Assembly: GCF_041053105.1 (NCBI RefSeq)
Contig: NZ_CP163444.1
Location: 558,001-622,000, forward strand
Length of the DNA: 64,000 bases
DNA from: Streptomyces sp. R44
GTDB taxonomy: Bacteria > Actinomycetota > Actinomycetes > Streptomycetales > Streptomycetaceae
Direction of reading: 5' to 3'
Both the position numbers and the translations under genes were made by a program. The notes beneath the pieces were generated by a model. The model saw only the letters and a list, made by a program, of their open reading frames with translations. It was not told where the DNA came from and did not search any database. Each line of letters opens with the position of its first letter. Positions within the stretch are counted from its first letter, which is position 1. This document shows positions 24,627 to 43,247 of this stretch, in pieces.

Positions 24627-24730
24627 GCCGACTGAACCCGCGGCACAGCGGTCGGTCAGGCCCGGCCCGCCGCCAGCTCGCCGACTGAGTCCGCGGCACA
24701 CCGGGTCGGTCAGGCCCGGCCCGCCGCCAT
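24627..24730. repeat. tandem duplication of a gene tail
   Basis: Two copies of about 50 bases, starting at 24627 and 24680, both begin GCCGACTGA and both contain GGTCGGTCAGGCCCGGCCCG. The second copy includes the last codons and stop of the S33 hydrolase. The first repeats the same LAAGRA-stop coding outside the gene, next to the IS element. Confidence 0.8.
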
Positions 24731-25975
24731 GTCCATCAGACGGGCGAGGACGCGGCCGCCCGAGGCCGAGAGGCCGTCGTGCTCCCACTCGTTGGTGACC
24801 CAGACGCGCGTGGCGCCGACCTCACGGGCCGTGCGCAGGGAGAGGCCCGCGTCGACGTACATGTCGTCGTGGTAGACGACCGCGGCGAGCGGCACCTCGT
24901 TGGCCGCGAGGCGGCGCGGGTCGTACAGGGGCGGCCAGTCGGTGCGCGCGGCGAGGAGGTCGGCGGCGTCCGCGAACGGGCGCAGGCCGCGGATCTCGCG
25001 GACCATCCAGGGGTACATCATCTCCCCGGTGAGCAGGAGCGGGTCGGCGTCGTCGGCGAACTCGGGAAAGTCCGCGAGGGCGCGGGCGGCCGCCCATGCG
25101 GTGGGGCCGTCGCCCTGCCCGTACAGGCTCTCCTGCAGGACGGCGAAGAGCGGGTTGTCGGCGAAGCCGGTCAGGGTCATCACCTGGTGCAGGAAGGTGT
25201 CGGTCAACTCGCCGTCGGGATCGAGGGCTTCGTCGAGCAGCCAGTGGAGGCGTTCGAAGCCGTCCCCCATGCCGAGGGCGAGTCCCAGCGTGCGCAGCCG
25301 GCGCGGGGTGAGCCGGTCCCCGTCCGGCAGGCGGACGTCCTCGGCTCCGAGGAGGTCGGCGATCTTCCGCAGCCGGGGAGCGTCCTGCGGGTACCGCCGG
25401 TAGAAGTCGAGGACCCGGTCGCGGACCCGGGGGTAGGTGCGGGCGTACACGTCGTCGGCGGCGGCGGTGAGACCGGGCAGTCCTCCCGTGACATAGCAGG
25501 CGCGCAATCCGGCAGGGGCCTGGGAGAGGTAGGTGAGGGTGAGGAAACCGCCGTAGCTCTGCCCGAGGGTCTCCCAGGGGGTGTCGCCGCAGAGTGCGCG
25601 GCGTATCAGCTCCGCGTCGGCCACGATCGAGTCGGCGCGGAAGTGCGCCAGGTGGTCGGCGAGGCGCTCCGCGGACGCGAAGCGGGCGGCGGAGCGCGCG
25701 GTGACCGGGCTGGAGCGGCCGGTGCCTCGCTGGTCGAGGAGCAGCACCCGGTGGGTCTTCAGGGCGTGGGGCAGCCAGCCGGGTGAACCGGTGGACGGAC
25801 GGGGCGATCTACCGCCGGGTCCGCCCTGGAGGTAGAGCAGCCAGGGCAGTTCCTCGCTCGCGCGGGCGGGGTCGGTGACCTCGCGGGCGAAGACCTGGAG
25901 GGTGGGGCCGTCGGGGGCCCGGTGGTCCAGGGGGACGGTGAAGGTGTGGTCGGTGGTCGCGTACGCGGGATTCAT
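24710..25975 (-). CDS. alpha/beta hydrolase, proline iminopeptidase-like (S33)
   Basis: A 421-residue cytoplasmic hydrolase. The oxyanion-hole motif LQGGPGGRS, LLLDQRGTGRSSPV and the nucleophile elbow GQSYGGFLTLTYL mark the prolyl aminopeptidase (S33) family; the catalytic His is probably in NEWEHDGL. Such enzymes remove N-terminal proline from peptides, which fits a cluster with a collagenase, peptide importer and hydroxyproline enzymes. It is last in the direction dehydrogenase/lyase, but a 14-base hairpin separates it from the aldehyde dehydrogenase. Its stop lies inside a tandem duplication next to the IS110 element. Family secure; substrate inferred from context. Confidence 0.87.
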   Translation of the reverse strand: MNPAYATTDHTFTVPLDHRAPDGPTLQVFAREVTDPARASEELPWLLYLQGGPGGRSPRPSTGSPGWLPHALKTHRVLLLDQRGTGRSSPVTARSAARFASAERLADHLAHFRADSIVADAELIRRALCGDTPWETLGQSYGGFLTLTYLSQAPAGLRACYVTGGLPGLTAAADDVYARTYPRVRDRVLDFYRRYPQDAPRLRKIADLLGAEDVRLPDGDRLTPRRLRTLGLALGMGDGFERLHWLLDEALDPDGELTDTFLHQVMTLTGFADNPLFAVLQESLYGQGDGPTAWAAARALADFPEFADDADPLLLTGEMMYPWMVREIRGLRPFADAADLLAARTDWPPLYDPRRLAANEVPLAAVVYHDDMYVDAGLSLRTAREVGATRVWVTNEWEHDGLSASGGRVLARLMDMAAGRA

Positions 25976-26017
25976 GGGTCTTCTCGCTCTGTGGGCGGGG
26001 CGGGTTGTCCCTTGGTG

Positions 26018-26058
26018 CGTACGGTGGTGAGCCTTCGGGCCGGACTCACCACCGTACG
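26018..26058 (-). terminator. hairpin after the semialdehyde dehydrogenase gene
   Basis: CGTACGGTGGTGAG (26018-26031) pairs perfectly with CTCACCACCGTACG (26045-26058) around a 13-base loop, just past the dehydrogenase stop. Confidence 0.75.
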
Positions 26059-26061
26059 AGG

Positions 26062-27447
26062 TCAGGCCGCCGGCCCCGCCGGCGCCAGGGTGTACGTCCG
26101 GCCGGACGTGTAGAACTCCAGGCCCGCTCTGCCCTGCTCGCGCGGCCCGTGGCTGGAGGCCTTGGAGCCGCCGAACGGCAGATGGAAGTCGACGCCGGTG
26201 GAGGGGGCGTTGATCCGGATCATGCCGGTGTCGAGCAGGTCGAGGCCGTGCAGGGCCGTGTTCAGGTCGGCGGTGTGGACCGAGGTCACCAGGCCGTACG
26301 GAACGGAGTTGGCGATCCGGATCGCGTGGGCGAGGTCGTCGGCGGCGAGCAGGGCCGCGACGGGCCCGAACACCTCCTCGCGCAGCAGCTTGTGTCCGGG
26401 CGAGACCTTCTCGACGAGGGTCGGTGCCGCGTACCAGCCGGGCCTGTCGAGCGCGGTGCCGCCGGCGAGCGTGCTCAGCCCGCGGCAGGCCTCGACCATC
26501 CGGTCGCGGGCGCCTTCCTGGATGAGCGGCCCGCACACGGTGGCCGGGTCGGCGGGGTCGCCGACGGGGAGGGCCTTCAGCGCCTCGGAGAGTGCCTCGC
26601 GCAGCGGGTCGAGAGCGGCACCGACCGCGATGACGCGGCTGGTGGCGGTGCACTTCTGGCCCGCGTATCCGGCGATGGAGGCGGCGATGTGGCCGGCCGC
26701 CTGTTCGATGTCCGCGTCGGGCAGGACGAGCGCCGCGTTCAGTCCGCCCATCTCGGCCTGCGCCGGGATGCCCCGGGCGGTCGCGGCCCGGGCGACGGCC
26801 TGGCCGACGGGGGTGGAGCCGGTGAAGGAGACGACGTCCGCGGCCGAGACGAGCGCGTTGCCCTCGGTGGCGCCGCCGGGGAGGACGGTGAACACCGCTT
26901 CCGGGACGGCCTTCCGGACGATCTCGGCGAGGCGCTGGGCGCACGCGGTGGCCTCGGGCGCGGGCTTGAGGACGACCGTGTTCCCGGCCGCGAGCGCGGG
27001 GGCGGCCTTCCAGGTGGGGATGGCGAAGGGGAAGTTCCAGGGGGTGATGAGCCCGGCCACGCCGTGCGGGCGGCGCCGGGTCAGGAGCAGTCCGGCCCCC
27101 GCCGCCGTCTCGTGGACGGCGCCGGTGGGTTCGTACGGGGCCTGGGCGTAGTAGCGCCAGATCGCGGCGGTCCTGGCCACCTCGGCTCTGGCTTCGGAGA
27201 GCGGTTTGCCGACCTCGCGCACGGCGAGCTCGGCGAGTTCGCCGGCCGCGGCCTCGACGGCGGTGGCGATCGCGCCCAGGGCGACGGACCGCGCGGCGGC
27301 TCCGGCGAGCAGCCAGCCGGGCTGCGCGGCACGGGCCCGCTCGACGGTGTCGACGGCGGCGAAGGCACCGGGCGCGGCCATCTGCAGGAGTACGTCGGCG
27401 GGGTCGGCCGGGTTGCGGGAGACGAGGGTGGGAAGTGCGTCGGTCAC
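26062..27447 (-). CDS. aldehyde dehydrogenase, probable 2-oxoglutarate semialdehyde dehydrogenase
   Basis: A 461-residue NAD(P)-dependent dehydrogenase with GVAGLITPWNFPFAIPTWK, the cofactor loop SFTGSTPVGQ, general base Glu 232 in EMGGLNAALVL and nucleophile Cys 266 in GQKCTATS. The end shows PFGGSKASSHGPREQG. In hydroxyproline catabolism the last enzyme oxidises 2-oxoglutarate semialdehyde to 2-oxoglutarate; its placement beside the DapA-family lyase and D-hydroxyproline-type dehydrogenase supports that role. The family alone would not decide the substrate. GTG 27447 follows GGAGG. Hairpins lie on both sides. Confidence 0.87.
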   Translation of the reverse strand: MTDALPTLVSRNPADPADVLLQMAAPGAFAAVDTVERARAAQPGWLLAGAAARSVALGAIATAVEAAAGELAELAVREVGKPLSEARAEVARTAAIWRYYAQAPYEPTGAVHETAAGAGLLLTRRRPHGVAGLITPWNFPFAIPTWKAAPALAAGNTVVLKPAPEATACAQRLAEIVRKAVPEAVFTVLPGGATEGNALVSAADVVSFTGSTPVGQAVARAATARGIPAQAEMGGLNAALVLPDADIEQAAGHIAASIAGYAGQKCTATSRVIAVGAALDPLREALSEALKALPVGDPADPATVCGPLIQEGARDRMVEACRGLSTLAGGTALDRPGWYAAPTLVEKVSPGHKLLREEVFGPVAALLAADDLAHAIRIANSVPYGLVTSVHTADLNTALHGLDLLDTGMIRINAPSTGVDFHLPFGGSKASSHGPREQGRAGLEFYTSGRTYTLAPAGPAA

Positions 27448-27496
27448 GGGGGGAGGCCTCCAGGGAAGGGGTCGTCCGGGAAGGTGCCGCGCGGCG

Positions 27497-27526
27497 CCGA
27501 CGGCGGGTGTCGGCCACCGCCGTCGG
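27497..27526 (-). terminator. hairpin after the DapA-family gene
   Basis: CCGACGGCGG (27497-27506) pairs with CCGCCGTCGG (27517-27526) over a 10-base loop, between the lyase and the dehydrogenase. It could terminate or merely attenuate. Confidence 0.6.
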
Positions 27527-27549
27527 TGAGCCGCTTCAGCGGGGGCGCG

Positions 27550-28458
27550 TCAGTGGTGGCCCTCCGCGACGGCCTTCTCGGTCGCCGTCCGCACCGCGGC
27601 CTCGATGGCGCCCGTCAGAGGGTGGCGCGGCGGGCGGGTGGGGCCGCCGGGGCGGCCGGCGATGTCCATGGACAGCTTGATGGACTGGACGAACTCCGTC
27701 TTCGAGTCCCAGCGCAGCAAGGAGTGCAGGGACTTGTAGAGCGGCAGCGCGGTCGCCAGGTCGCCCGCGACGGCTGCGTGGTAGAGCGTGGCGCAGCTGG
27801 CCGGGAAGGCGTTGGGGTAGCCGGCGATCCACCCGACGGCGCCCGCCACGGCCAGCTCCAGGAGGACGTCGTCCGCCCCGATCAGCAGATCCAGCTCCGG
27901 GGCGAGTTCGGCGATCTCGTACGCCCGCCGGACGTCGCCGCTGAACTCCTTCACCGCGACGATGCTGCCGTCGCCGTGGAGCCGCGCGAGCAGATCGGGG
28001 GTGAGGTCGACCTTCGTGTCGAAGGGGTTGTTGTACGCGACGACCGGGATGCCCACGCCGGCCACCTCGGTGTAGTGGGCACGTACGGCGGCGGCGTCGG
28101 CGCGGTAGGTGTTGGGCGGCAGGAGGAGGACCGAGCCGCAGCCGGCCTCCGCGGCCTGCTCGGCCCAGCGGCGGGACTCGGCGCTGCCGTAGGCGGCGAC
28201 GCCCGGCATGACCCGGGCTCCGTCGCCGGCCGCTTCGACGGCGGTACGGACGACCTGGGCGCGCTCGGCGTCGGTGAGGGTCTGGTACTCGCCGAGGGAG
28301 CCGTTCGGGACGACGCCGTCGCAGCCGTTGGCGATCAGCCAGGCGACGTGCTCGGCGTAGGCGTCGTGGTCGACGGAGAGGTCCTCGCGGAAGGGGAGGG
28401 TGGTGGCGACCATGATGCCGCGCCAGGGGCGGTCGGTGTTCCAGGTGGTGGCGGTCAT
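27550..28458 (-). CDS. DapA-family lyase, probable pyrroline-4-hydroxy-2-carboxylate deaminase
   Basis: A 302-residue (beta/alpha)8 aldolase of the dihydrodipicolinate synthase family. It has NGSLGEYQTLT near residue 52, the catalytic Tyr in VVAYNNP (142) and Schiff-base Lys 170 in IVAVKEFSGD. In bacterial trans-4-hydroxyproline catabolism such an enzyme converts 1-pyrroline-4-hydroxy-2-carboxylate to 2-oxoglutarate semialdehyde with loss of ammonia. Upstream lies a D-hydroxyproline-type dehydrogenase and downstream a semialdehyde dehydrogenase, which makes this role much more likely than lysine biosynthesis. ATG 28458 has AAAGG upstream, and a regulon box lies 14-36 bases before it. Confidence 0.88.
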   Translation of the reverse strand: MTATTWNTDRPWRGIMVATTLPFREDLSVDHDAYAEHVAWLIANGCDGVVPNGSLGEYQTLTDAERAQVVRTAVEAAGDGARVMPGVAAYGSAESRRWAEQAAEAGCGSVLLLPPNTYRADAAAVRAHYTEVAGVGIPVVAYNNPFDTKVDLTPDLLARLHGDGSIVAVKEFSGDVRRAYEIAELAPELDLLIGADDVLLELAVAGAVGWIAGYPNAFPASCATLYHAAVAGDLATALPLYKSLHSLLRWDSKTEFVQSIKLSMDIAGRPGGPTRPPRHPLTGAIEAAVRTATEKAVAEGHH

Positions 28459-28471
28459 GTCGATGACCTTT

Positions 28472-28494
28472 CTATAGTGTGTGACATTTTATAG
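28472..28494. promoter_or_regulatory. regulon box C, upstream of the DapA-family gene
   Basis: A 23-base dyad: CTATA (28472-28476) and TATAG (28490-28494) flank a central TGT-G-ACA. The core GTGTGACAT (28479-28487) matches ATGTGAAAT of the importer and collagenase promoters at seven of nine positions. Confidence 0.6.
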
Positions 28495-28506
28495 AGGGGC
28501 GAAAGC

Positions 28507-28530
28507 GGAGAGGCCCGCACAGGCCTCTCC
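28507..28530 (-). terminator. terminator of the hydroxyproline dehydrogenase operon
   Basis: GGAGAGGCC (28507-28515) and GGCCTCTCC (28522-28530) form a perfect 9-base stem with a 6-base loop right after the last dehydrogenase subunit, so the lyase gene is transcribed separately. Confidence 0.8.
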
Positions 28531-28538
28531 TCGGGGCT

Positions 28539-29987
28539 CTAGGAAGCGTCGGGTTCCGGGTCCTCGTCCAGGTCGGCGAGCACCGAGAGCCGGACCGGGA
28601 CGGCGAACGGGCGTCGCTCCGCGGGCGGTTCGGCGGCACCGTCGCGCGCGGCGAGGCAGGCGACGGCCGTCCCGCACATCCGCCCCTGGCACCAGCCCAT
28701 GCCGGCCCGGGTGAGGAGTTTGACGGTGCGCGCGTCCCGTGCGCCGAGCTCGGTGACGGCCTCGCGGACGCGGCCGGCACTGACCTCCTCGCAGCGGCAC
28801 ACGTCCGTCTCGTCGGTGAGCCAGCCCTGCCATCCGGGGCCCGGTGCGTGAGCGGCGGCCATGACGTCGGCGAAGGCGCGCATCCGGTTCCGCCGGCGCC
28901 GGAGCTCGGCGACCCGGCCCGCGCCGGCGCGGCGGCCGAGGAGTCGCGCGGCGACGGCCCGGGCCGCCAACTCACCCTCGGTCCTGGCGAGTTCCGCGCC
29001 TCCCACGCCTCCGGTCTCGCCCGCTGCCCACAGGCCGGGCTCCGAGGTCTCCTGGAGGTCGTCCAGGACGAGGCCGAGGGTGCCGTCGGGGAGGGGCCGG
29101 GTGGCGCAGCCCACGGTCGTGGCCAGTTCGATCTGCGGGACCAGGCCGTGGCCGACGGCCAGGGCGTCGCAGGCGATCCGACGGCCCGTCCCCGCTACGG
29201 GGCGCCAGTCGGCGTCCAGGCGGCTGACGGTGACACCCTCGACCCGGTCGGTGCCGTGCACTTCGGTGACGGCGCTGCGCAGCCGGACGGGGACCCGGTG
29301 CCGGAGCAGTCCGGTTCCGTGCAGCAGGGCCTCGGCCGCCTTTCCCGGGTTGGCCAGGAGCGCGCGGGGGCTGCGGGCGTACCGGAGATATCCGGCGGCC
29401 TCGACCACGGCCGGTACCTGCGCGCCGGCGGCGGCGAGGGACGTGGCGACGGCGAGCAGCAGGGGGCCGCTGCCGGCCACGACGATGCGGCGGCCGGGCA
29501 GTACGAGGCCGGACTTGAGCATGGCCTGGGCTCCTCCGGCGCCGACGACGCCGGGCAGGGTCCAGCCGGGGAAGGGGAGTTGGCGTTCGTACGCGCCGGT
29601 GGCGAGCAGCAGCGCCCGGGCGCGGACGCGTACCGGCCGTTCCCCGTCGCCGTCGGCTCCGGTGACCGCGTGGACGGTCCAGGTCCCGTCGCCCTCCCGC
29701 ACGGTGGACCACACGTGGTGTCCGGCGAGGTGGGCGGCGCCGCTTGCCGCGAGGCGTCGGCGGAGGTCGGTGAAGGCGGACCAGTCGTGGTGCAGCGCCT
29801 CGGGCCGTACGGCGCCGAGCGCGGGCGCGGGGTGCCGGTAGTACTGCCCGCCGGTCTGGGTGGAGGTGTCGAGGAGGGCGACGGAGAGGCCGAGTTCGGA
29901 GGCGGTGACGGCGCCGGAGAGTCCCGCGGAGCCGGCTCCCACGACCGCCAGGTCGTATGTCTGCGGCTCAGACGGTGAGGCGGTCAT
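28539..29987 (-). CDS. FAD-dependent oxidoreductase, D-hydroxyproline dehydrogenase alpha-type subunit
   Basis: A 482-residue flavoprotein of the HcnB/sarcosine oxidase-alpha type. The N-terminal FAD motif is DLAVVGAGSAGLSGAVTASELG. A second nucleotide loop, RRIVVAGSGPLLLAVAT, lies near the middle, with GLWAAGETGGVGGAE before the end. The C-terminal Cys cluster CRCEEVSAGRVREAV...GMGWCQGRMCG is a BFD-like Fe-S site. Subunits of this type join a small 2Fe-2S protein and a DadA-like flavoprotein to oxidise D-hydroxyproline with a respiratory acceptor. All three are present here in one operon. ATG 29987 overlaps the 2Fe-2S gene by 20 bases. Confidence 0.88.
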   Translation of the reverse strand: MTASPSEPQTYDLAVVGAGSAGLSGAVTASELGLSVALLDTSTQTGGQYYRHPAPALGAVRPEALHHDWSAFTDLRRRLAASGAAHLAGHHVWSTVREGDGTWTVHAVTGADGDGERPVRVRARALLLATGAYERQLPFPGWTLPGVVGAGGAQAMLKSGLVLPGRRIVVAGSGPLLLAVATSLAAAGAQVPAVVEAAGYLRYARSPRALLANPGKAAEALLHGTGLLRHRVPVRLRSAVTEVHGTDRVEGVTVSRLDADWRPVAGTGRRIACDALAVGHGLVPQIELATTVGCATRPLPDGTLGLVLDDLQETSEPGLWAAGETGGVGGAELARTEGELAARAVAARLLGRRAGAGRVAELRRRRNRMRAFADVMAAAHAPGPGWQGWLTDETDVCRCEEVSAGRVREAVTELGARDARTVKLLTRAGMGWCQGRMCGTAVACLAARDGAAEPPAERRPFAVPVRLSVLADLDEDPEPDAS

Positions 29988-30282
29988 GGCCGTGTCCCTC
30001 CTGGGTGGTGATCGCGTCGCCGGGGCGGGCCGGGACCAGGCAGGCGCGCCGGTTGGGTTCGCCGTTGACGGTGGCGAGGCAGTCGTAGCACTGGCCGATG
30101 CCGCAGAAGGCGCCGCGCGGCCGGCCGCCGTCCCGGGTGGTGCGCCAGGCCAGGATGCCGGCGCCCCAGAGGGCGGCGGCGACGGTCTGGCCCGGCAGGG
30201 CGGTGACGCGACGGCCGTCGAAGGTGATCTCGAACGGCGGATCGGGCTGTGCGCCGACGAGGTCGGCGGGGGTGCGGGCCAC
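29968..30282 (-). CDS. (2Fe-2S)-binding protein, dehydrogenase gamma-type subunit
   Basis: A 104-residue ferredoxin-like protein. FEITFDGRRVTALPGQTVAAALWGAGILAWR is the beta-grasp opening of HcnA-like subunits. The four cysteines are at 60, 65, 68 and 81 in CGIGQCYDC and RRAC, binding one 2Fe-2S cluster. It would carry electrons between the two flavoprotein subunits. It begins at GTG 30282 and overlaps the alpha-type gene by 20 bases, so stoichiometric translation is likely. The same trio occurs in glycine/cyanide and D-hydroxyproline oxidation systems; context favours hydroxyproline. Confidence 0.9.
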   Translation of the reverse strand: MARTPADLVGAQPDPPFEITFDGRRVTALPGQTVAAALWGAGILAWRTTRDGGRPRGAFCGIGQCYDCLATVNGEPNRRACLVPARPGDAITTQEGHGHDRLTV

Positions 30283-30313
30283 GGGCCCTCCTCTCGTGAC
30301 GGTGGGTGCGCGG

Positions 30314-31471
30314 TCAGGCCGCGGGCTCGGCGAACCGGTCCGGTCTGAACGGGTGGATGTCGAGCGGTGGTTCGGCGCCGGTGAGGCAGGCGGCGACGAT
30401 CCGCCCCGTCACGGGGGCCAGTCCGATGCCCGCTCCTTCGTGGCCGCAGGCGTGGAGCAGTCCGGGGACGCGGGGGTCGGGGCCGATCGCGGGCAGGTGG
30501 TCCGGCAGGTAGGGGCGGAAGCCGAGGTAGGTGCGGACGGCCCGTACGGTCCCGAGGACCGGGAACAGCGCGGTGGCCCCGACGGCGAGCCGGCGCAGGA
30601 CCTCGGTGGAGAGCGTGCGGTCGAAGCCGACCCGTTCGCGGCTGGCGCCGATCAGGACCGGGCCCGCCGGGGTGCCCTCGACGACGGCCGAGGTCTGGAG
30701 CGCGGCGGAGCCGCTGGCGACGTCGGCGACGTAGTCGGCGGCGTACACCTTGTGGCGCACCACGCGCGGGAGGGGTTCGGTGACGAGGACGAAGCCCCGG
30801 CGGGGCAGTACGGGCAGGTGTACGCCCGCGAGTTCGGCGAGGGCGCCGCCCCAGGTTCCGGCGGCGTTGACCACGTACGGGGCGTGGAGCTCGCCGCGTG
30901 TGGTCCGTACGCCGCGGACCTCTCCGGCCGCGCCGGTGAGCAGGGCGGTGACCTCCTCCCCCAGGCGCAGCCGGATCCGGTCGCCTTCCGTGCGCAGCAG
31001 CAGGGCCGCGGCCTGGGCGGGCATCACCTGGGCGTCCTGGGGATAGTGGAAGCCGCCCGCCAGGGTGGGTGCGAGGTGGGGCTCCAGGTCGTGGAGCCGG
31101 TCCGCGGGGACCTCCTGGCTGGTGACGCCCGCCTTCTCCTGGCGGGCCGCGAAGTCGCGCAGGGCGCGCATCCCGGACTCGTCCGAGGCGACGACGAGGC
31201 CGCCTTTCGCCTCGTACTCGACCTGCGGCGGGAGCAGTTCGGCCAGCTCCCGCCACAACGCGGTGGCGATCAGGGCGAGTTCGAGTTCGGGCCCTGGTTC
31301 CTTGTCGGAGACCAGGAGGTTTCCCTCGCCCGCCCCGGTCGTTCCGCCGGCGACGGAACCGCGGTCGACGACGGTGACGGAGAGGCCGGCTCGGGCGGCG
31401 TAGTGGGCGCAGGCGGCGCCGACGACGCCGGCGCCGACGACGATGAGATCCGAGGTGTTTCTCGTGGGCAC
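30314..31471 (-). CDS. FAD-dependent D-amino acid oxidase family protein, D-hydroxyproline dehydrogenase beta-type subunit
   Basis: A 385-residue DadA/HcnC-like flavoprotein. The N-terminal DLIVVGAGVVGAACAHYAARAGLSVTVVD binds FAD, GGTTGAGEGNLL follows, and the C-terminus has YLGFRPYLPDHLPAIGPD and LLHACGHEGAGIGLAPVTGRIVA, which close the FAD site. It should hold the active site that oxidises cis-4-hydroxy-D-proline to the pyrroline. It is first in the three-subunit operon. GTG 31471 has no Shine-Dalgarno; a -10-like TATTAC (reverse strand, 31476-31481) ends five bases before it, suggesting a leaderless message. A regulon box overlaps that promoter. Confidence 0.88.
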   Translation of the reverse strand: MPTRNTSDLIVVGAGVVGAACAHYAARAGLSVTVVDRGSVAGGTTGAGEGNLLVSDKEPGPELELALIATALWRELAELLPPQVEYEAKGGLVVASDESGMRALRDFAARQEKAGVTSQEVPADRLHDLEPHLAPTLAGGFHYPQDAQVMPAQAAALLLRTEGDRIRLRLGEEVTALLTGAAGEVRGVRTTRGELHAPYVVNAAGTWGGALAELAGVHLPVLPRRGFVLVTEPLPRVVRHKVYAADYVADVASGSAALQTSAVVEGTPAGPVLIGASRERVGFDRTLSTEVLRRLAVGATALFPVLGTVRAVRTYLGFRPYLPDHLPAIGPDPRVPGLLHACGHEGAGIGLAPVTGRIVAACLTGAEPPLDIHPFRPDRFAEPAA

Positions 31472-31475
31472 GGCA

Positions 31476-31489
31476 GTAATATTTCACAT
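31476..31489. promoter_or_regulatory. regulon box D at the dehydrogenase operon start
   Basis: The reverse-strand sequence ATGTGAAATATTAC holds the core ATGTGAAAT found exactly in the importer and collagenase promoters. It overlaps the presumed -10 (TATTAC) and ends five bases from the GTG start. Confidence 0.65.
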
Positions 31490-31588
31490 GGCACTGGAGT
31501 TGCCAAGACCCGCGGGGAGCTTCTCAGTTGGCGCGTCGCCGCCGCTCCCGCCGCCGGGACACGGATGAGTAACGGAGCTCCCGACACC

Positions 31589-31617
31589 TTGTCAGTACAA
31601 TTTCACATTACTATGTT
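31589..31617 (+). promoter_or_regulatory. promoter and regulon box A, peptide importer operon
   Basis: TTGTCA (31589-31594) and TATGTT (31612-31617) are 17 bases apart, and the spacer contains the box ATTTCACAT (31600-31608). The same promoter with one spacer difference precedes the collagenase gene. The predicted leader to the ATG at 31690 is about 66 bases. Confidence 0.8.
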
Positions 31618-31689
31618 ACCGGTCACATTCCAGCCGCTCGCCTCGTCGACGCCGGCTGTCCGCCTGCTGCTCTCTCGGAGTGACCACCC

Positions 31690-35356: not shown

Positions 35357-36360
35357 TGGGCGACCTGGCCCCCCTGCTGTCGGTACGGGACCTCACGGTC
35401 ACGTTCCCGACCAAGCGCGGCCCCGTCCGTGCGGTCGACTCCCTCTCCTTCGACGTCCCGCCCGGGCGCACCCTCGGCATCGTCGGCGAGTCCGGCTCCG
35501 GAAAGTCGGTCACCTCGCTGGCCGTGATGGGCCTGCACACCGGCGCCGAGGTCACCGGCTCCGTCGCCCTGGCCGGCCGCGAACTTGTCGGCCTGCCGGA
35601 GCGCGAGCTCAACCGGCTGCGCGGCCGGAGGATGGCGATGATCTTCCAGGACCCGCTGTCCAGCCTGCACCCGTACTACACGGTCGGCGAGCAGATCGCC
35701 GAGCACCACCGGGTCCACTTCGGGTCCCGTCGCGCGGCCGCCCGCGAGCGGGCCGTCGAGGCGCTCGGCGAGGTCGGCATCCCCGAGCCGCGTCGCCGGG
35801 CCGGTGAGTACCCCCACCAGTTCTCGGGCGGCATGCGGCAGCGCGTGATGATCGCGATGGCGCTCGCCTGCGAGCCCGACCTGCTGATCGCCGACGAGCC
35901 GACGACGGCGCTCGACGTCACCGTCCAGGCGCAGATCCTGGAGCTGATCGCCCGCCTCCAGCAGGACCGGGGCCTCTCCGTCGTCATGATCACGCACAAT
36001 CTGGGCGTGGTGGCCCGGGTCGCGCACGACGTCCTGGTGATGTACGGCGGCCGGGCCGCCGAACGCGCCCCGGTGGACGCCCTGTTCGCGACCCCGGCCC
36101 ATCCGTACACCCGGGGACTGCTCGACTCGCTGCCCCGGCTCGACGACCACGACGACGCGCCGCTCCGGGCGATCCCCGGCAGCCCGCCGTCCCTGCTCGA
36201 CCCGGCACCGGGATGCGCGTTCGCGCCCCGCTGCTCCCGCGCGGCCGCCGGCTCCGAGGAGGAACGGGCCCGCTGCACGGGCGAACGCCCGCCGCTCGGC
36301 GGCCCGGACGGACACCCGGCCGCCTGCCACTTCCCCGCGTACGAAGGCGTTCCCTCATGA
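35356..36360 (+). CDS. peptide ABC transporter ATP-binding protein (DppD/OppD type)
   Basis: A 334-residue ATPase with Walker [10 protein letters not shown], the Q-loop in [19 protein letters not shown], signature [15 protein letters not shown], Walker [15 protein letters not shown] and the H-loop MITHNLG. The C-terminal oligopeptide extension has [11 protein letters not shown] and the Cys-bearing [11 protein letters not shown]...CHFP, which in this family may hold an Fe-S cluster. It energises peptide import with the partner ATPase that follows. It overlaps that gene by four bases (ATGA). Confidence 0.92.
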
Positions 36361-37346
36361 CCAGCACAGCCCGATCCCTGTTGAGCGTCCGGGACCTGAC
36401 CATGACGTTCCCCGGCCGCCGGGCCCGCTCGGCGCCCGTCCGGGCCGTCGACGGCGTCTCCTTCGACGTGGCGGCGGGCGAGACCCTCGGTCTCGTCGGC
36501 GAGTCCGGCTGCGGCAAGTCGACCACCGGCCGCATGATCGTGCGGCTCCTGGAGCCGACCGCGGGCTCCGTCTCGTACGACGGACGCGACATCAGCCGTC
36601 TGTCCCAGCGCGAGCTGAAACCGCTGCGGCGCGAACTCCAGATGGTCTTCCAGGATCCGCACTCCTCCCTCAACCCCCGGCAGACCGTCGCCCGGATCAT
36701 CTCCGACCCGCTGCTCGTCCAGGGGACTCCGGCCGCCGAGGCGCGCAAGCGGGCCGTGGAGCTGATGGAGCTCGTCGGGCTCATCCCGGAGCACGTCGAC
36801 CGCTACCCGCACGAGTTCTCCGGCGGGCAGGCCCAGCGCATCGGCATCGCCCGCGCACTGGCCACCGGCCCCCGCCTCGTCGTCGCCGACGAACCCGTCT
36901 CCGCCCTCGACGTCTCCGTGCAGGCGCAGATCGTCAACCTCATGGAACGGCTCCAGCACGAACTCGGCCTCGCCTACCTCTTCATCGCACACGACCTCTC
37001 CGTCGTGAAGCGGGTCTGCGACCGGGTCGCCGTGATGTACCTCGGCCGCATCGTGGAGATCGGCGCGAAGGAGCGGGTGTACGCGGCGCCCGCCCACCCC
37101 TACACCCGGGCGCTGCTCTCCGCCGTCCCCCTGCCCGACCCGGCGGCCGAGCGGGCCCGGGAGCGGATCACGCTGCTCGGCGATCCTCCGAGCCCCGCCG
37201 CTCCCCCGCCGGGCTGCACCTTCCACCCGCGCTGCCCGAAGGCCCGGGAGATCTGCCGCACCGAGGCGCCGCTGCTGCGGATCGCCGTCCCGGGCGAGGC
37301 CCGGCAGGTGGCCTGTCACTTCCCCGAGGGTCAGGAGGAAACGTGA
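36357..37346 (+). CDS. peptide ABC transporter ATP-binding protein (DppF/OppF type)
   Basis: A 329-residue ATPase completing the importer. Walker A is [11 protein letters not shown], the Q-loop [16 protein letters not shown], the signature [15 protein letters not shown] and Walker [16 protein letters not shown], with [11 protein letters not shown] as H-loop. The C-terminal Cys motif is [20 protein letters not shown]...ACHFP. All catalytic residues are present. It is the last of five genes read without a gap larger than 8 bases. The following FAD monooxygenase has its own upstream region, so the operon probably ends here, although no strong hairpin is visible. Confidence 0.92.
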
Positions 37347-37437: not shown

Positions 37438-38682
37438 ATGACCAAGCCCGAGAGCGCCGGACCCGACTACGACGTCGTCATCAGCGGGGCCGGCCTCGCC
37501 GGCTGCGCCGCGGCGATCCTGCTCGCCCGGCGCGGTGCCCGCGTCGCGCTGCTCGAACGCCGTTCGCGCCCCGGGGCGTACAAGGCGCTGTGCACCCACT
37601 CCATCACCGCCAACGCCACCCCGGTGCTCGACGAACTCGGCCTCATACCGGCGCTGGAGAAGGCCGGAGCCGTGCGCAACGAGGCGCGCTGGTACACCCG
37701 TTGGGGATGGATCGAGCCCGGCGCCGCGCCCGGCCCCGAGCTGCCGTACGGCTACAACGTCCGGCGCAGCACCCTCGACCCGCTGATCAGGTCCCGTGCG
37801 GCCGAGACCCTCGGCGTCGACGTGCTCCTCGGCCACAAGGTGACCGGGCTGATCCGGGAGGCCGGGCGCACGGTCGGGGTGCGTGCGTCGACGCCCGAGG
37901 GGGAGCGCGAGATCCGGGCCCGCCTGGTGGTCGGCGCCGACGGCAAGGACTCGGCCGTGGCCGGGTTCGCCGGGGTGCCGACCCGACGGCACGAGAACGC
38001 GCGCTTCGGCTATCTCGCGCACTTCCGGAACCTGCCCCTGCGGGACGGGATCAGTCACGCCTGGTTCCTGGTGCCGGACATGGCGTACGCGTTCCCGAAC
38101 GACGACGGGGTGACGGTCGTCGCGGTGCTCCCGGACAAGAAGCGGCTTCCGGCCTTCCGGGAGGATCTGGAGGGCAGCTTCCTGGAGTTCGTCCGCTCCC
38201 TGCCGGACGCGCCGGCCATCGATGCCGCCGAGCGCGTCACGAAGATCACCGGCACGGTCGACTACCCGCTCCACACGCGCAAGGCGGCCGCACCGGGGCT
38301 CGCGCTCATCGGCGACGCGGCCCTGACCGGGGATCCGCTGTGGGGCGTGGGATGCGGGTGGGCGCTGCAGTCCGCGCGGTGGCTGGCGGAGGCGGTCGCC
38401 CCGGCCCTGACCGGCACGGGCGACCTCGACAAGTCGCTCGCGGCCTACGCGCGCACGCACCGGCTCCGGCTCGGCGGGCACCAGTACCTGGCGGCCGACT
38501 TCGCCAAGGGCAGGCCGTTCAATCCCCTGGAGCGGCTGATGTTCTCGGCGGCGGCGCGCGACGGGGCCGTGGCCCGGCACATGCACATGTTCGCGTCGCG
38601 GCTGATGGGTCCGCTGGGCTTCCTGAACCCCCTGATGGTGACCAGGGCGGCGGTCGTGAACCTCAGGCATCGCGGGGCGTGA
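37438..38682 (+). CDS. FAD-dependent oxidoreductase/monooxygenase (PHBH fold)
   Basis: A 414-residue flavoprotein of the group A monooxygenase/geranylgeranyl reductase fold. It shows YDVVISGAGLAGCAAAILLARRGARVALLER for the FAD ADP moiety, RSTLDPLIRSRAAE in the middle, ARLVVGADGKDSAV as the DG motif and LALIGDAALTGDPLWGVGCGWALQSA as the third FAD motif. The C-terminal stretch (LMFSAAARDGAVARHMHMFASRLMGP) resembles actinobacterial FAD oxidoreductases rather than phenol hydroxylases. It sits inside the collagen/hydroxyproline block between importer and reductase, but no step of that pathway needs it. Its role is unknown. Confidence 0.83.
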   Translation: MTKPESAGPDYDVVISGAGLAGCAAAILLARRGARVALLERRSRPGAYKALCTHSITANATPVLDELGLIPALEKAGAVRNEARWYTRWGWIEPGAAPGPELPYGYNVRRSTLDPLIRSRAAETLGVDVLLGHKVTGLIREAGRTVGVRASTPEGEREIRARLVVGADGKDSAVAGFAGVPTRRHENARFGYLAHFRNLPLRDGISHAWFLVPDMAYAFPNDDGVTVVAVLPDKKRLPAFREDLEGSFLEFVRSLPDAPAIDAAERVTKITGTVDYPLHTRKAAAPGLALIGDAALTGDPLWGVGCGWALQSARWLAEAVAPALTGTGDLDKSLAAYARTHRLRLGGHQYLAADFAKGRPFNPLERLMFSAAARDGAVARHMHMFASRLMGPLGFLNPLMVTRAAVVNLRHRGA

Positions 38683-38756: not shown

Positions 38757-39698
38757 TCAGGCGGCCTCGCGGGCCGCGCGGTACAGGGCGCCCGCGACGG
38801 CGAGGTCCTCCCAGGCCATGCCGACGCTCTTGAAGAGACGCGGACGCCCGGAGGGGACCCGGCCGTGCACCAGGTCGGCGAGGGTGCCCGCGATGTGGTC
38901 CTCGCCGATCGCCCCCTCGGCCAGGGGGACGAGCAGGTCGCCCGCCTCACGGAGCGCCGCCGAGCGGGCCTCGACGTGGACCTCGGCGCGGGCCACGAGG
39001 GCGGTGTCGGTCTCCCGGGCCGCCGGCTCGTGCGAGCCGACCGCGACGACGGTGGCGCCGTCGGCGACCAGCGTGCCGTCGAAGAGGGGTTCGCGGGCCG
39101 TGGTGCAGCAGACGACCAGGTCGGCTCCGGCCACGTCGTCGGCCGTGCCGGCACGGGCGGGCACGTCGAGGGTCCGCGCGTATCCGGCGAGGGCGCGGGC
39201 ACCGACCGCGTTGCGTCCGACGACGACGGCCTCGGCGACCCCGCGCACGGCGAGGACGGCCTCCAGGTGGCCGTACGCCTGGGGCCCGGTGCCGAAGAGC
39301 ACGAGCCGCAGGGGACGGTCGTCGGGCGTCAGATGCCGTACGGCGAGGGCCGAGACGGCCGGGGTGCGCAGCTCGGTGAGCGCCGCGCCGTCGAGCAGGG
39401 CGAGCGGCTGGAGGCTGCTGCCGTCGAGGAGCAGGTACGAGCCGGTGATGCGGGGCAGCCCGAGGGCCGGGTTGCCGGGGGCCACGCCCGCGATCTTCAC
39501 CCCGGCGTATCTGTGATCGGCGGCGGGCATGAGGAGGAGCTCGCCGGCCGGGACCGGCACGACGGTGCGGGGCGGGGCGGTCTCGGGGTCGAATCCGGCG
39601 CGCAGGACGTCGGCGAGGACGTCGACGGCCGCGGCCGGGGTCAGGAGGCGGGTCATGGCGGGGGCGTCGATAGGGAGCAGGCCGGTCGTGGGCGTCAT
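38757..39698 (-). CDS. ornithine cyclodeaminase/mu-crystallin family, probable 1-pyrroline-2-carboxylate reductase
   Basis: A 313-residue NAD(P)-dependent protein. The family pattern includes LTPAAAVDVLADVLRAGF, a substrate-side lysine in YAGVKIAGVAPGN, the Rossmann loop LVLFGTGPQAYGHLEAVLAVRGV and DLVVCCTTAREPLF. Relatives in hydroxyproline clusters reduce 1-pyrroline-2-carboxylate to L-proline after trans-3-hydroxyproline dehydration. The adjacent, coupled proline racemase-family gene supports this. True ornithine cyclodeaminase activity cannot be ruled out. ATG 39698 is used; GTG 39707 overlaps the upstream stop as GTGA and is an equally good start. Confidence 0.85.
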   Translation of the reverse strand: MTPTTGLLPIDAPAMTRLLTPAAAVDVLADVLRAGFDPETAPPRTVVPVPAGELLLMPAADHRYAGVKIAGVAPGNPALGLPRITGSYLLLDGSSLQPLALLDGAALTELRTPAVSALAVRHLTPDDRPLRLVLFGTGPQAYGHLEAVLAVRGVAEAVVVGRNAVGARALAGYARTLDVPARAGTADDVAGADLVVCCTTAREPLFDGTLVADGATVVAVGSHEPAARETDTALVARAEVHVEARSAALREAGDLLVPLAEGAIGEDHIAGTLADLVHGRVPSGRPRLFKSVGMAWEDLAVAGALYRAAREAA

Positions 39699-39703
39699 GG
39701 TGG

Positions 39704-40663
39704 TCACAGCAGGAATCCCGTGCCCAGCTCGTCGTGGGGGTCGAGGACGAAGGTGTGGGTGCCGGTGCGGTGCGTGGATCCGGTCACCTCCGTGATCCCG
39801 CCGGGCAGCAGTCGGCCGGTGAACACGGTGTCCGCCACGGACTCGTGCGTGAGGGTGTCCCCGGGGGCGAGCAGCCCGTCCTCGCCGAGCAGGGCGAGCC
39901 GTGCGGAGGTGCCGGAGCCGCAGGGTGAGCGGTCGATCTGCCCGTCGGCGAAGACGGTGACGTTGCGCTGGTGCGGCCCGTGGGGAGTGCGGGGCAGGTC
40001 CTCGTACAGGATGACTCCGTACACGTCGTGCTCGGGGAGCGCGGCGCGGATCTCCCGTCCGGCCCGGACGAGCGCGGGCAGGGAGCCGCGCGTGGTGTCC
40101 AGGGCGAGGGCGGAGGCGGGGACGGAGACGTAGCAGGCGCCGGAGTCGGCGAGGTCGACCTCGACGGTGCCGGAGGGGATGGTCACCGGGACCTTGCGCG
40201 CGACGACCCGCGTCGGGACGTTGCGGAAGGTGACGCCGGTGGTGCGGCCGGCCGCGCGGTGCACGGTCGCGGTGACGCGCCCGGAGGGCACGTCGATGCG
40301 GACGGGGACGTCGCCGTCGTCGGGTGCGGGGACGCGCCCGGTGTCGACGGCCCAGGCGCCGAGCGCCATCGTGCCGTGCCCGCAGGCGGTGGAGTAGCCG
40401 TCCTTGTGCCAGAACAGCACGCCGAAGTGGGCGCCGTCGTCGTCGGGCGGGACGATGAAGCCGCCGTACATGCCGGAGTGTCCGCGTGGTTCCCGGACGA
40501 GGAGGCGGCGGAGCTCGTCGAGGGGGCCGAGCCGGAGTGCGAGGGCGCGGCGTTCGGCGACGGTGTCGCCGGGGATCGGCGGCAGGTCCTCGTCGACGAT
40601 CCTGAAGGGTTCGCCTGCGGTGTGGTAGTCGGTGGTGCGGACCGAGTGCGGGGTGGTGCTCAC
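39704..40663 (-). CDS. proline racemase family, probable 4-hydroxyproline 2-epimerase
   Basis: A 319-residue enzyme of the proline racemase superfamily. It has YHTAGEPFRIV, RGHSGMYGG, and both catalytic cysteines: Cys 94 in STACGHGTMALG and Cys 248 in DRSPCGSGTSARLA. Two cysteines indicate a two-base racemase or epimerase, since trans-3-hydroxyproline dehydratases usually replace the second by Thr or Ser. The likely reaction is trans-4-hydroxy-L-proline to cis-4-hydroxy-D-proline, supplying the dehydrogenase encoded at 28539-31471. GTG 40663 follows GGAGG. It is coupled to the downstream reductase. Confidence 0.9.
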   Translation of the reverse strand: MSTTPHSVRTTDYHTAGEPFRIVDEDLPPIPGDTVAERRALALRLGPLDELRRLLVREPRGHSGMYGGFIVPPDDDGAHFGVLFWHKDGYSTACGHGTMALGAWAVDTGRVPAPDDGDVPVRIDVPSGRVTATVHRAAGRTTGVTFRNVPTRVVARKVPVTIPSGTVEVDLADSGACYVSVPASALALDTTRGSLPALVRAGREIRAALPEHDVYGVILYEDLPRTPHGPHQRNVTVFADGQIDRSPCGSGTSARLALLGEDGLLAPGDTLTHESVADTVFTGRLLPGGITEVTGSTHRTGTHTFVLDPHDELGTGFLL

Positions 40664-40750: not shown

Positions 40751-43099
40751 TCAGCTGCGGAGGGGGCCCTCGCAGCTGTAGCTCGACGTGCCCGCGACCT
40801 TGGTGGACCAGATGTCGATCGGTCCGAAGCTGCAGTTCATGTCGGCCAGGTTGTTCGACGCGGCGCCGGCGCGGTCGAGGAGGAAGTAGTCGACGGTCTC
40901 GGACATGTCCTTGAAGTTCTGGTCGGCGCTGGCCCAGTTGGACAGGTTGGCGGTGATCCGGCCGGTGCAGAGGAAGCGGCGCTTGCCGGGCTCGCCGTTC
41001 TCCACGCAGTCGGGGTTGCTGGCGGTGGCGGCGTAGAAGGAGGACTTCACGGATGCGAGGTCCGCGTCGCGCAGCTGGGCGTTGGGCGTGTACGTGGTGT
41101 TCGGGACGTACAGCTGGTCGACCTTGGCGATCTGCGTGTCGAGGAAGCGGTCGTAGTCGCGCTGGAGGGCGGCGTCGGAGCTCAGCCGGTCGCGCCAGGC
41201 GTCGTACGCCGTCACGTCGTTCGCCCGCAGGTGGGTGTACATCTCGCGGAGCAGCGAGGGCTTCTCGGTCCAGAGGAACTCGAAGAACGTGCCCGCGTAG
41301 TTGTAGAAGCGGAAGCCGTCGCCGTCGTAGGTGGCGTGGAGGATCTGGCGGACGTTCATCCGGGGGCCGCCGCCGGCGGTGTCGTTGATGATGCCGCGGA
41401 CGAGGGACTTGCGGACGGCGATGCCATTGTCGCGGGTGGCCCCGTCGAAGAACTCGGCGGTGCCCTCGTCCATGGCGGTGGTGCGGTCGCCCTGGTACCA
41501 GGGGCCTTCGCCGAAGAAGCCGGGGACGGCCCAGCGGCCGTTGAGGTAGTGGGTGTACTCGTGGCGGAAGAGCTCTTCCAGCGTCAGCGAGGAGTCCTGG
41601 GGGACGCGCCGCTGGTACGTGTAGAAGGTGGCGCCGCGCTCGATGTAGATGCCGCCGTTGTTGGTGCCCATGCCGGTGAGGATGGGGTGGTAGTTCTCGT
41701 AGTCCGCGCGGGAGGCGTAGAGCACGATGTTCAGGGTGGTGTTGTTGTCGCCCGCGAGCGGCTGCTCGGTGCCGAGGACGCGGTGGTACTGCGCCTTGAC
41801 CTGCTTGCTCGCGTAGTAGAGCTGGTCGACGGTGGCCCGGTCGAGGGCGGTGCGGACCTTGATGGCGCCGTTGTCGTAGGTGTACGTGTACGGGAAGAGC
41901 TGCTTCTCGATGTCCTCCTTGCACACGCCGTACGGCTTGCAGGCCTCGTAGAGGTTGAGCCAGGAGACGATCTTCGCCCAGGGCTCGCTGCCGCGGCCGA
42001 AGGTGCCGACGACGGTGGTGAGCATGGTGCCGAGGTCGGCGACGGTCGCGTCCCTGAGGCCGTCGACCTGGCCGAAGCGTCCGTACTCGCTGACGGCGTC
42101 GCGGGCGACCCAGGCGTTGACGGTCCCCTTCAGGTGTCCGTAGCCGGCGAAGGCCTTGAAGACCGCGCGGTACGCCGGGTCGGCGGCGACGGCCGCGTGG
42201 AAGGCGCTGTCCTGGTTGCCGGGGTAGACGCCGAGGTAGTTCACGGAGAGACCGGCGAGCGCGGCACCGGCCCAGGCCGGGTCGAGGTTCGTGGCGGTGT
42301 GCGACGGGTCCATGGTGGCCAGGACCCGCTTGATCAGGGCGAGTTGGTACTGGCGGAGGCCCGGCGCGCTGGCCGCGTAGAGGGCCTCGCGGAGGGTGTT
42401 CGCGTTCGTCTTCGTGACGTCGAAGGTGCGGGCGGCGGCGCCGAAGTCGGCGACGGCCTGCCGGATCGCGTTCACCGTGGGCGCGTCGGTGATGTCGATC
42501 TCGTCGCGCGAGTAGTCGTGGTAAGCGACGGCGTGCAGGTACGTGAACATCTCCTCCAGGTGGGAGGAGTTCCGTCCGTCGTGGGCGGCGGACAGGCTCG
42601 ATATGCGGCGGGCGACGGCCTGGACGTGGGCGTCGGACATCACCGGTGCGAGCCGCGCGTCCCAGGTCCATATGAGGCCGCGCAGACAGCCGTCGGCGGT
42701 GACCGCGGGGTCGGCGAGGAAGTCGGCGAACTGTTCGGGGGCGAGGCCGGTGATCCCGTCGAGGGTGCAGGGGACGCCGGTGGTCGTGGTGGCGGCCGCC
42801 GCGAAGGAGCGTGCGGTCGTGCCGGACGGGGCCCGGCCGGGAACGCGGCCCGTGGCGTGGCCGCCGGGGGCGGGCGCGGGTCCGAAGGTGGTGCGCGGGG
42901 CGGAGGCCCGGTGCTCGACCTCGTCGAAGGGGTTGGCTCCCGGCTGTGCCTGCGGGGCCGGCGCGCCGAGCACGGGGGCCGGGGCCGACTGGTCGTCCGT
43001 GCTCGCCGCGGAGGCACCGGCCTGGCCGACGGAGGCGAGGAGGGTGACCGCGATGGCGGAGGCGAGCAGGGACGAGCGCACACGTCTGTGGAGGGACAA
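40751..43099 (-). CDS. secreted microbial collagenase (peptidase M9)
   Basis: A metalloprotease of 782 residues from TTG 43099. A signal peptide (RRVRSSLLASAIAVTLLASVGQAGASA) and a Pro/Ala-rich spacer precede the M9 N-terminal activator domain (about 100-370) and the catalytic domain. The zinc site is HEYTH at 513-517, with the third ligand Glu at about 545 in DEGTAEFFDG; the spacing of 28 residues is as in clostridial collagenase. No PKD or collagen-binding repeats follow. TTG is preferred because AGGAG sits five bases upstream; ATG 43201 would give 816 residues but has no Shine-Dalgarno. It digests collagen or gelatin outside the cell and shares its promoter with the peptide importer. Confidence 0.9.
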   Translation of the reverse strand: MSLHRRVRSSLLASAIAVTLLASVGQAGASAASTDDQSAPAPVLGAPAPQAQPGANPFDEVEHRASAPRTTFGPAPAPGGHATGRVPGRAPSGTTARSFAAAATTTTGVPCTLDGITGLAPEQFADFLADPAVTADGCLRGLIWTWDARLAPVMSDAHVQAVARRISSLSAAHDGRNSSHLEEMFTYLHAVAYHDYSRDEIDITDAPTVNAIRQAVADFGAAARTFDVTKTNANTLREALYAASAPGLRQYQLALIKRVLATMDPSHTATNLDPAWAGAALAGLSVNYLGVYPGNQDSAFHAAVAADPAYRAVFKAFAGYGHLKGTVNAWVARDAVSEYGRFGQVDGLRDATVADLGTMLTTVVGTFGRGSEPWAKIVSWLNLYEACKPYGVCKEDIEKQLFPYTYTYDNGAIKVRTALDRATVDQLYYASKQVKAQYHRVLGTEQPLAGDNNTTLNIVLYASRADYENYHPILTGMGTNNGGIYIERGATFYTYQRRVPQDSSLTLEELFRHEYTHYLNGRWAVPGFFGEGPWYQGDRTTAMDEGTAEFFDGATRDNGIAVRKSLVRGIINDTAGGGPRMNVRQILHATYDGDGFRFYNYAGTFFEFLWTEKPSLLREMYTHLRANDVTAYDAWRDRLSSDAALQRDYDRFLDTQIAKVDQLYVPNTTYTPNAQLRDADLASVKSSFYAATASNPDCVENGEPGKRRFLCTGRITANLSNWASADQNFKDMSETVDYFLLDRAGAASNNLADMNCSFGPIDIWSTKVAGTSSYSCEGPLRS

Positions 43100-43218
43100 C
43101 AGAACTCCTGCTGGTGAGGGGGGTTGGTGCGGGGATGGGTTCGCGGCACTGGTCAGGTGCGCGAACTGGTCGCTTTCGCACGGCGTATGACGGACGTTCA
43201 TCAGACCGTGTGCGCTGT

Positions 43219-43247
43219 AACATAGTAATGTGAAATTGCACTGACAA
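43219..43247 (-). promoter_or_regulatory. promoter and regulon box B, collagenase gene
   Basis: On the reverse strand TTGTCA (43242-43247), a 17-base spacer and TATGTT (43219-43224) repeat the importer promoter, differing by one base in the spacer. The shared core ATGTGAAAT lies at 43228-43236 on the forward strand. The leader to TTG 43099 would be about 113 bases. Confidence 0.8.

Follow-up and report, generated by a model that had tools for sequence, protein, structure and literature searches.

A stretch of 64,000 nucleotides (nt) of the Streptomyces sp. R44 genome (the window, positions 558001–622000 of the 8.89-Mb single-contig genome) carries a block at 24710–43247 that is probably explained, as a whole, as a collagen-utilisation island whose three transcription units share a HypR-type repressor. 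The first gene set, on the minus strand, includes an M9 collagenase gene, a gene of the proline racemase superfamily (PRS2) and an ornithine-cyclodeaminase-family (OCD) gene. The second set, on the plus strand, includes genes of a binding lipoprotein, two permeases, two ATPases and a flavin adenine dinucleotide (FAD) oxidoreductase. The third set, on the minus strand, comprises DAO, Fer2, Pyr_redox/BFD (NOX), DHDPS (dapA), aldehyde dehydrogenase (aldH) and S33-like hydrolase genes. Families were assigned by Pfam, NCBIfam and PDB sequence matches (phmmer among them), and motifs were read from the residues. The named close protein matches belong to Streptomyces, among them an 89% PRS2 copy in S. 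venezuelae ATCC 10712.

In the proposed mechanism, the first unit would encode a secreted M9 collagenase, PRS2 and a reductase of the ornithine-cyclodeaminase family, and the second a dipeptide/oligopeptide ATP-binding cassette (ABC) importer for the released peptides of the Gly-Pro-Hyp type. 4-Hydroxyproline would be converted to 2-oxoglutarate. Since the island hypE has been deleted, the first step would fall to the HypE encoded at 6.44 Mb, where hypR and a second dapA also lie. trans-3-Hydroxyproline would be processed by PRS2, acting as a dehydratase, and then by the reductase to yield proline. As judged by its gene content, the island would serve two hydroxyprolines, yet it is not complete alone.

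The original prediction had described the block as a single unit leading from extracellular collagen to 2-oxoglutarate. All the genes that it named are present at the positions and belong to the families it gave, as revealed by Pfam and residue motifs, but its list omitted the OCD gene and the FAD oxidoreductase gene, and its reading of the block overlooked both a shared promoter element and the missing epimerase. The idea of one collagen-to-hydroxyproline unit is backed by synteny, by the shared promoter/operator element and by the HypR regulon described in Streptomyces coelicolor (PMC6608401). The claim of full catabolism in one locus was not supported, since the racemase-family enzyme of the island is a paralogue of the epimerase (about 40% identity) with another pocket signature, and hypE itself is deleted from the island and found at 6.44 Mb.

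The missing epimerase

The R44 genome contains two matches to the proline racemase superfamily (PRS), the island PRS2 and a gene at 6.44 Mb (G000:C1:6441728-6442732). The latter is the orthologue of the epimerase kept between dapA and aldH in relatives (84% to genome G143) and sits in a short set, dapA2-hypE-hypR. The position of hypE in relatives is exactly that of the dapA-aldH gap in the island. This gap (27448–27549, minus strand) is 102 nt long and retains the last hypE codons, and the remaining hypE end bears GGAGG before aldH. A blastn comparison of the corresponding stretch of locus L085 with the gap gave 86% over 94 nt, about 30 nt belonging to the end of hypE and the remainder to the start of aldH. 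The translation of the scar, aligned with the tails of six hypE-bearing loci, reads PDDPFPGGLPP, compared to PEDPFPAGFLL in the hypE at 6.44 Mb. S. gardneri (L087) retains about 25 codons of the hypE tail. A protein-level search for hypE and hypR remnants in 24001–32000 returned chance-level matches only (E 0.12 or more), the hypE tail being visible at the DNA level.

The distribution of hypE was followed in a set of named loci, the best 80 of 584 confirmed DapA-anchored loci from named genomes, which leans towards close relatives and in which each locus was trimmed to 10 kb per side, so distant genes are under-counted. The gene is absent from five of the 80 loci (L083, L084, L087, L094 and L110), and all five genomes have a copy elsewhere. 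This copy adjoins dapA and hypR in four genomes, and in the fifth an OCD gene intervenes; in one of the five (L170, genome G151), its reading frame is interrupted. The operon order DAO-Fer2-NOX(BFD)-DapA is kept in the R44 island, but the HypE that belongs to the order of the HypR system is missing there. On the evidence of these alignments, the island hypE is deleted and a copy survives at 6.44 Mb with hypR. Gene loss following pathway duplication appears to be the simplest account of this split, and the island would represent a clear case of a pathway divided through gene deletion with the fossil still legible. An S. coelicolor strain deleted for its epimerase gene, SCO6293, no longer grows on L-hydroxyproline (PMC6608401).

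PRS2 and its reductase partner

PRS2 (39704–40663, minus strand) is a Pro_racemase-family protein with both Cys residues, as revealed by Pfam, NCBIfam and PDB matches and by signature alignments. It is not the hydroxyproline epimerase of this genome. Its signature, Tyr-Cys-Phe-Cys, was found in all 29 parsed sequences of the 30 copies in the genus and in 119 of 120 protein relatives, one being parsed in part, while the epimerase of the same genome has Ser-Cys-Ile-Cys, and the Sinorhizobium meliloti pSymB gene located beside a DAO gene, which we take to encode HypRE, has Ser-Cys-Tyr-Cys. The Cys-Cys pair of a 4-hydroxyproline 2-epimerase is present in PRS2, but such enzymes are also described as having Ser or Val at site 1 and Cys or Tyr at site 5 (PMC4364671), and PRS2 has Tyr and Phe instead. 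Site 5 by itself is not a strict criterion, since the R44 hypE product, with Ser at site 1, has Ile there. The possibility that the island racemase-family gene is the epimerase was rejected on paralogy, synteny and the pocket signature. The case also cautions against taking two Cys residues in a racemase-family protein as proof of a hydroxyproline epimerase.

The solved trans-3-hydroxyproline dehydratases have Tyr and Phe at the compared pocket positions and Thr replacing the second Cys. Because Tyr and Phe are common to PRS2 and these enzymes, the pocket of PRS2, as far as residues can tell, is a dehydratase pocket at the compared positions with one catalytic change. Of six NCBIfam models, that of trans-3-hydroxyproline dehydratase was the best for PRS2 (235 bits, with 540 needed), followed by proline racemase (184 bits) and 4-hydroxyproline epimerase (158 bits), all below their cut-offs. 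The best PDB relatives by score were the trans-3-hydroxyproline dehydratases 6r76 (208 bits) and 7qpo (190 bits); 6r76 was deposited as a proline racemase and is named a dehydratase in PMC9309405.

The partner gene (38757–39698, minus strand) belongs to the ornithine cyclodeaminase/mu-crystallin family (Pfam, 161 bits) and encodes a probable pyrroline-2-carboxylate reductase. Its top PDB match is 6t3e, a Delta1-pyrroline-2-carboxylate reductase, and its top NCBIfam model is Pyr2C/Pip2C reductase (215 bits, below the cut-off of 322). This gene lies directly downstream of PRS2 in 28 of the 29 named loci with PRS2, and the same adjacency was found in an Arthrobacter and in a Bacillus badius plasmid. 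In the latter (pPM400, L176), the PRS2-like gene and the ornithine-cyclodeaminase gene are accompanied by a set resembling D-amino-acid dehydrogenase.

trans-3-Hydroxyproline is the minor hydroxyproline of collagen. A cluster of Bacilli proteins with ornithine-cyclodeaminase-family neighbours dehydrates this compound to a product that the partner family then reduces to proline (PMC4113996). The two peptides for which the BC0905 primers of that paper code, FADGQV and LSVTAV, both occur in a Bacillus cereus protein with the PRS2 signature; in our reading, BC0905 belongs to the Bacilli cluster, a placement made from its single tested neighbour, BC0906. PRS2, a paralogue of the epimerase paired with an OCD-family gene, together with its partner would most likely convert trans-3-hydroxyproline to proline, a prediction based on the signature, the adjacency of the reductase gene and the Bacilli assays (PMC4113996).

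The Cys-Cys pair is also consistent with a different, unlikely function, that of a broad epimerase acting on 4-hydroxyproline, 3-hydroxyproline and proline, which would make the island self-sufficient and the other epimerase redundant. The Thermococcus protein TlProR, which is Cys-Cys as PRS2 is, epimerises proline and both 4- and 3-hydroxyproline and has a pyrroline-2-carboxylate reductase gene nearby (PMC4364671). However, of the 30 PRS2 genes of the genus, at least 17 have a listed 4HypE-type gene within 1.6 kb and at least 23 have one within 15 kb, and the five named genomes without island hypE all retain a copy elsewhere, including G151 with its interrupted frame. The pocket residues also argue against a broad epimerase, being Tyr/Phe in PRS2, Ser/Ile in the R44 hypE product and Ser/Tyr in the presumed HypRE of the S. 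meliloti pSymB.

A somewhat less probable alternative is that the pair recovers D-proline and has no relation to 3-hydroxyproline, with PRS2 acting as a proline racemase and its partner as an ornithine cyclodeaminase or a reductase that recycles D-proline. Phe at site 5 is shared with proline racemases (PMC4364671), the proline racemase model is the second best for PRS2, the PDB matches include the proline racemases 1w61 (173 bits) and 7pb3 (162 bits), and the partner scores 180 bits with the NCBIfam model "ornithine cyclodeaminase family protein". In contrast, the higher-scoring PDB relatives are the two dehydratases, and the model named ornithine cyclodeaminase gives the partner 74 bits versus 215 for Pyr2C/Pip2C reductase.

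The shared promoter element and HypR

The promoters of the M9 collagenase gene and of the importer have in common a 24-nt element, TRCAATTTCACATTACTATGTTAC. In the whole 8.9-Mb genome, at up to three mismatches, this 24-mer occurs at two sites, both in the island. The search of 150 genomes of the genus (R44 included) revealed 77 sites in 51 genomes and none with the reversed control. Forty of these sites lie upstream of a same-strand M9 domain, at most 2.6 kb away; another 32 are no more than 15 kb from a PRS gene, and five are elsewhere, the sites without a fetched locus being placed by coordinates alone. Of those five, two precede a binding protein gene, one is at a contig end and the remaining two are in G054 and G105. 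Among 30 fetched loci, the element precedes M9 in 16 and the binding protein in 13, and in one case stands at a contig end. On a G143 contig without M9 (G143:C4:155396-155419, L038 6397), the element directly precedes PRS2, as though the collagenase gene alone had been lost. Of 394 genomes drawn from the class, 16 contained the element, that is, 15 of 40 genomes of the genus and one of the 354 others. The alignment of 82 sites (two from the window and 80 from named loci) demonstrated that conservation reaches TTGTCAG upstream and GSTCACA downstream of the 24-mer; conservation within the 24-mer is partly due to the search that selected the sites, whereas the flanks were not selected by it.

Scanning 18.8 kb for promoters gave three sites, where 0.4 were expected, one for each predicted transcription unit. 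The sigma-70-like promoter TTGTCA-17-TATGTT precedes both the M9-PRS2-OCD set (43217–43247, minus strand, with TGCAATTTCACATTACTATGTTAC) and the importer set (31589–31619, plus strand, with TACAATTTCACATTACTATGTTAC), and TTGGCA-17-AATATT precedes the DAO operon (31478–31506, minus strand). Each 17-nt spacer contains a HypR-like box, TGCAATTTCAC, TACAATTTCAC and TGCCATGTGAA, the last of which, at the DAO promoter (31483–31493), extends one base into the second hexamer. A sequence related to the DAO promoter precedes DAO in L036 and L038. The folding of the element as a single strand showed nothing unusual (z −0.70).

The HypR of S. coelicolor, a repressor of the hydroxyproline operon SCO6289-93 and the M9 gene SCO5912, binds TGCAATGTCAC and TACAATGTCAC (PMC6608401). 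The hypR gene of the R44 genome (L033:10813-11496) encodes GntR and FCD domains and has the exact published box, TACAATGTCAC, upstream. Exact TGCAATGTCAC is contained in the element at 5 of the 77 sites in the genus. HypR is likely to regulate the three island promoters.

Several points weigh against this reading of the island. The published HypR box, TGCMATGTCAC, is absent in its exact form from the window, where the island promoters hold variants, and a scan of the window for the box at up to two mismatches was at chance level, with 15 matches found and 15.1 expected. Besides, two one-mismatch variants of the box were not bound by HypR, although another, TGCAATGTGAC, was (PMC6608401). Because of the missing exact box, the chance-level relaxed matches and the mixed binding of variants, the identity of the regulator is given here as likely. 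The second catalytic position, Cys in PRS2, is Thr in the solved trans-3-hydroxyproline dehydratases (our alignments; PMC4364671). NCBIfam cut-offs were reached by none of the ten island proteins scanned, and the S33 gene is present in just 17 of the 80 named loci. Finally, for strain R44 the case is built on sequence.

Conservation, known systems and gene content

The original prediction had proposed seeking the same gene set in other genomes by neighbourhood, and the block does recur. In the named loci, DapA is present in 80, hypE in 75, NOX in 73, hypR in 72, DAO in 71, Fer2 in 70, the promoter element in 62, the binding protein in 42, ALDH and OCD in 39 each, M9 in 37, PRS2 in 29, S33 in 17 and the FAD oxidoreductase in three. 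By tblastn of the window genes against fetched relatives, G004 and G015 have the same block, as does G143 but without M9 (77–98% identity). The blocks in G034, G074, G054, G098 and G012 are rearranged, and those in G149, G127 and G003 are more distant; G075, G045 and G007 have PRS2 without the catabolic operon. Locus L161 contains a fuller operon with M9, DAO, Fer2 and NOX. The retention of the block by relatives shows that it was not assembled by chance.

M9 was found in 87 of the 150 genomes of the genus, R44 included. The M9 matches were split by bit score into a strong and a weak class of 68 and 42 rows, a division of our own making. Of the class to which the window gene belongs, 25 of 42 matches are within 20 kb of a PRS gene, 11 are on another contig and six are distant or without PRS; in the other class, 14 of 68 are within 20 kb. 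A second M9 gene of R44, of the strong-scoring class (G000:C1:3671503-3672243), looks shortened (profile 41–289, open frame of 356 aa), and similar short M9 frames occur in G030 and G046.

It is rather improbable that the cluster is directed at hydroxyproline-rich proteins of plants or algae, or at antibiotics that contain hydroxyproline, and not at collagen: hydroxyproline does occur in plant and algal walls (PMC6608401) and in peptide antibiotics (PMC5144071), and M9 is found in fewer than half of the named loci, but the element precedes M9 in 16 of the 30 fetched loci and most M9 genes of the window's class lie near a PRS gene.

The collagen-utilisation island has known counterparts. The HypR regulon of S. 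coelicolor (PMC6608401) includes hypR, SCO6289-93, the M9 collagenase gene SCO5912 and SCO5281, and resembles the R44 system in the order DAO-Fer2-NOX-DapA-HypE, in the GntR/FCD regulator and in the M9 collagenase being part of the regulon; the box before hypR is identical in both. In S. coelicolor, however, the collagenase gene, the semialdehyde dehydrogenase gene and the hydroxyproline operon are at separate loci, and the regulon table of that paper lists neither a peptide importer nor an S33 enzyme nor a PRS2-reductase pair, all of which belong to the single R44 island. In R44, on the other hand, hypE and hypR lie outside the island and the island box is a variant, CAATTTCAC. The collagen utilisation gene cluster of Colwellia BB5 (PMC7883544) is likewise a one-locus cluster, but it belongs to another phylum, takes up substrates by major facilitator superfamily (MFS)/TonB systems and not by a peptide ABC importer and has other regulators, the comparison being made at the level of the cluster. 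Paired loci of 4HypE and t3HypD (PMC4113996) contain two PRS genes close together, one with DAAO/DHDPS/ALDH genes and the other with an OCD-family reductase gene; the passages describing them mention no collagenase, HypR element or named Streptomyces protein of the PRS2 type.

The Streptomyces regulon principle (PMC6608401), the Colwellia one-locus cluster (PMC7883544) and neighbouring epimerase and dehydratase genes (PMC4113996) are, from these sources, already known. The suggestion that the arrangement was possibly undescribed for an actinomycete therefore stands only in part. In the open-licence PMC literature, we found no report of the importer in the HypR regulon, the conserved element, the PRS2-reductase pair in a collagen island, the hypE split or the one-locus form in Streptomyces. 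The broader proposal is that an almost Streptomyces-only promoter element of about 40 nt is one switch for collagenase, a collagen-peptide importer and two hydroxyproline pathways, that a Cys-Cys PRS branch comprises 3-hydroxyproline dehydratases against the Cys-Thr rule, and that lineages with a second operon split the pathway by losing the island hypE; we consider it evenly balanced. If true, a loose regulon of collagenase and hydroxyproline operon would become a complete collagen-scavenging programme of soil Streptomyces with importer and operator named, and a substrate would be predicted for a peptide importer and for an enzyme subfamily.

The M9 collagenase gene (40751–43201, minus strand) encodes a protein with Peptidase_M9 above the cut-off (155 bits), M9_N (39 bits), an HEXXH motif (HEYTH at 547) and a signal-peptide-like N-terminus, and its peptidase domain matches ColT 4ar8 with 204 bits. 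From the reading of the N-terminus, the start may instead be GTG at codon 33. The importer genes on the plus strand form a complete SBP family 5 peptide ABC importer set: a peptide-binding lipoprotein (31690–33432; SBP_bac_5, 247 bits; lipobox-like VTGC), and, assigned by Pfam, permeases of the OppC/DppC (33441–34373) and OppB/DppB (34370–35356) types and ATPases with oligo_HPY of the DppD (35356–36360) and DppF (36357–37346) types.

The following gene (37438–38682, plus strand) encodes, according to Pfam and NCBIfam, a geranylgeranyl-reductase-like FAD oxidoreductase, a lineage-specific accessory. In a comparison that took in L083, L084, L123, L172 and L173, genes of this type adjoin OCD or the importer in close relatives and S33 in the more distant L123; because of these two placements, the gene may have entered such islands twice.

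The catabolic operon on the minus strand encodes the three putative D-hydroxyproline dehydrogenase subunits, identified by Pfam as DAO (30314–31471), the small Fer2_4 subunit (29968–30282) and Pyr_redox_2 with BFD [2Fe-2S] (28539–29987, also residue motifs). The DapA-family gene (27550–28458; DHDPS, 164 bits; motifs VKEFSG and YNNPF) has its homologous place in SCO6292 of S. coelicolor (PMC6608401). The aldehyde dehydrogenase (26062–27447; Aldedh, 416 bits; GQKCTA motif) is a probable 2-oxoglutarate semialdehyde dehydrogenase, its top NCBIfam model being alpha-ketoglutaric semialdehyde dehydrogenase (359 bits, below the cut-off of 770).

The S33-like alpha/beta hydrolase (24710–25975, minus strand; Abhydrolase_1, 57 bits; nucleophile motif GQSYGG) is a probable prolyl aminopeptidase. 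It matches PDB 8jgn, labelled AT3g61540, with 368 bits by phmmer; we take AT3g61540 to be a prolyl aminopeptidase, which the literature search did not confirm. Of 35 loci that carry ALDH and span 18 kb or more, 16 have this gene. The idea that S33 is an outsider to the island, given its absence near the G004, G015 and G143 blocks, was dropped, as the named loci that carry it have it mostly adjoining hypR or aldH.

An IS110-family transposase gene (23202–24398) is located at the S33 edge of the island. Elsewhere in the window, a C45-family autoproteolytic acyltransferase/hydrolase was identified above the NCBIfam cut-off (46450–47646), adjoined by an MFS transporter and a LacI regulator, and the gene at 57841–60690 encodes a protein of 949 aa that combines DUF5122 propeller repeats with DUF11 and RTX-type calcium repeats.

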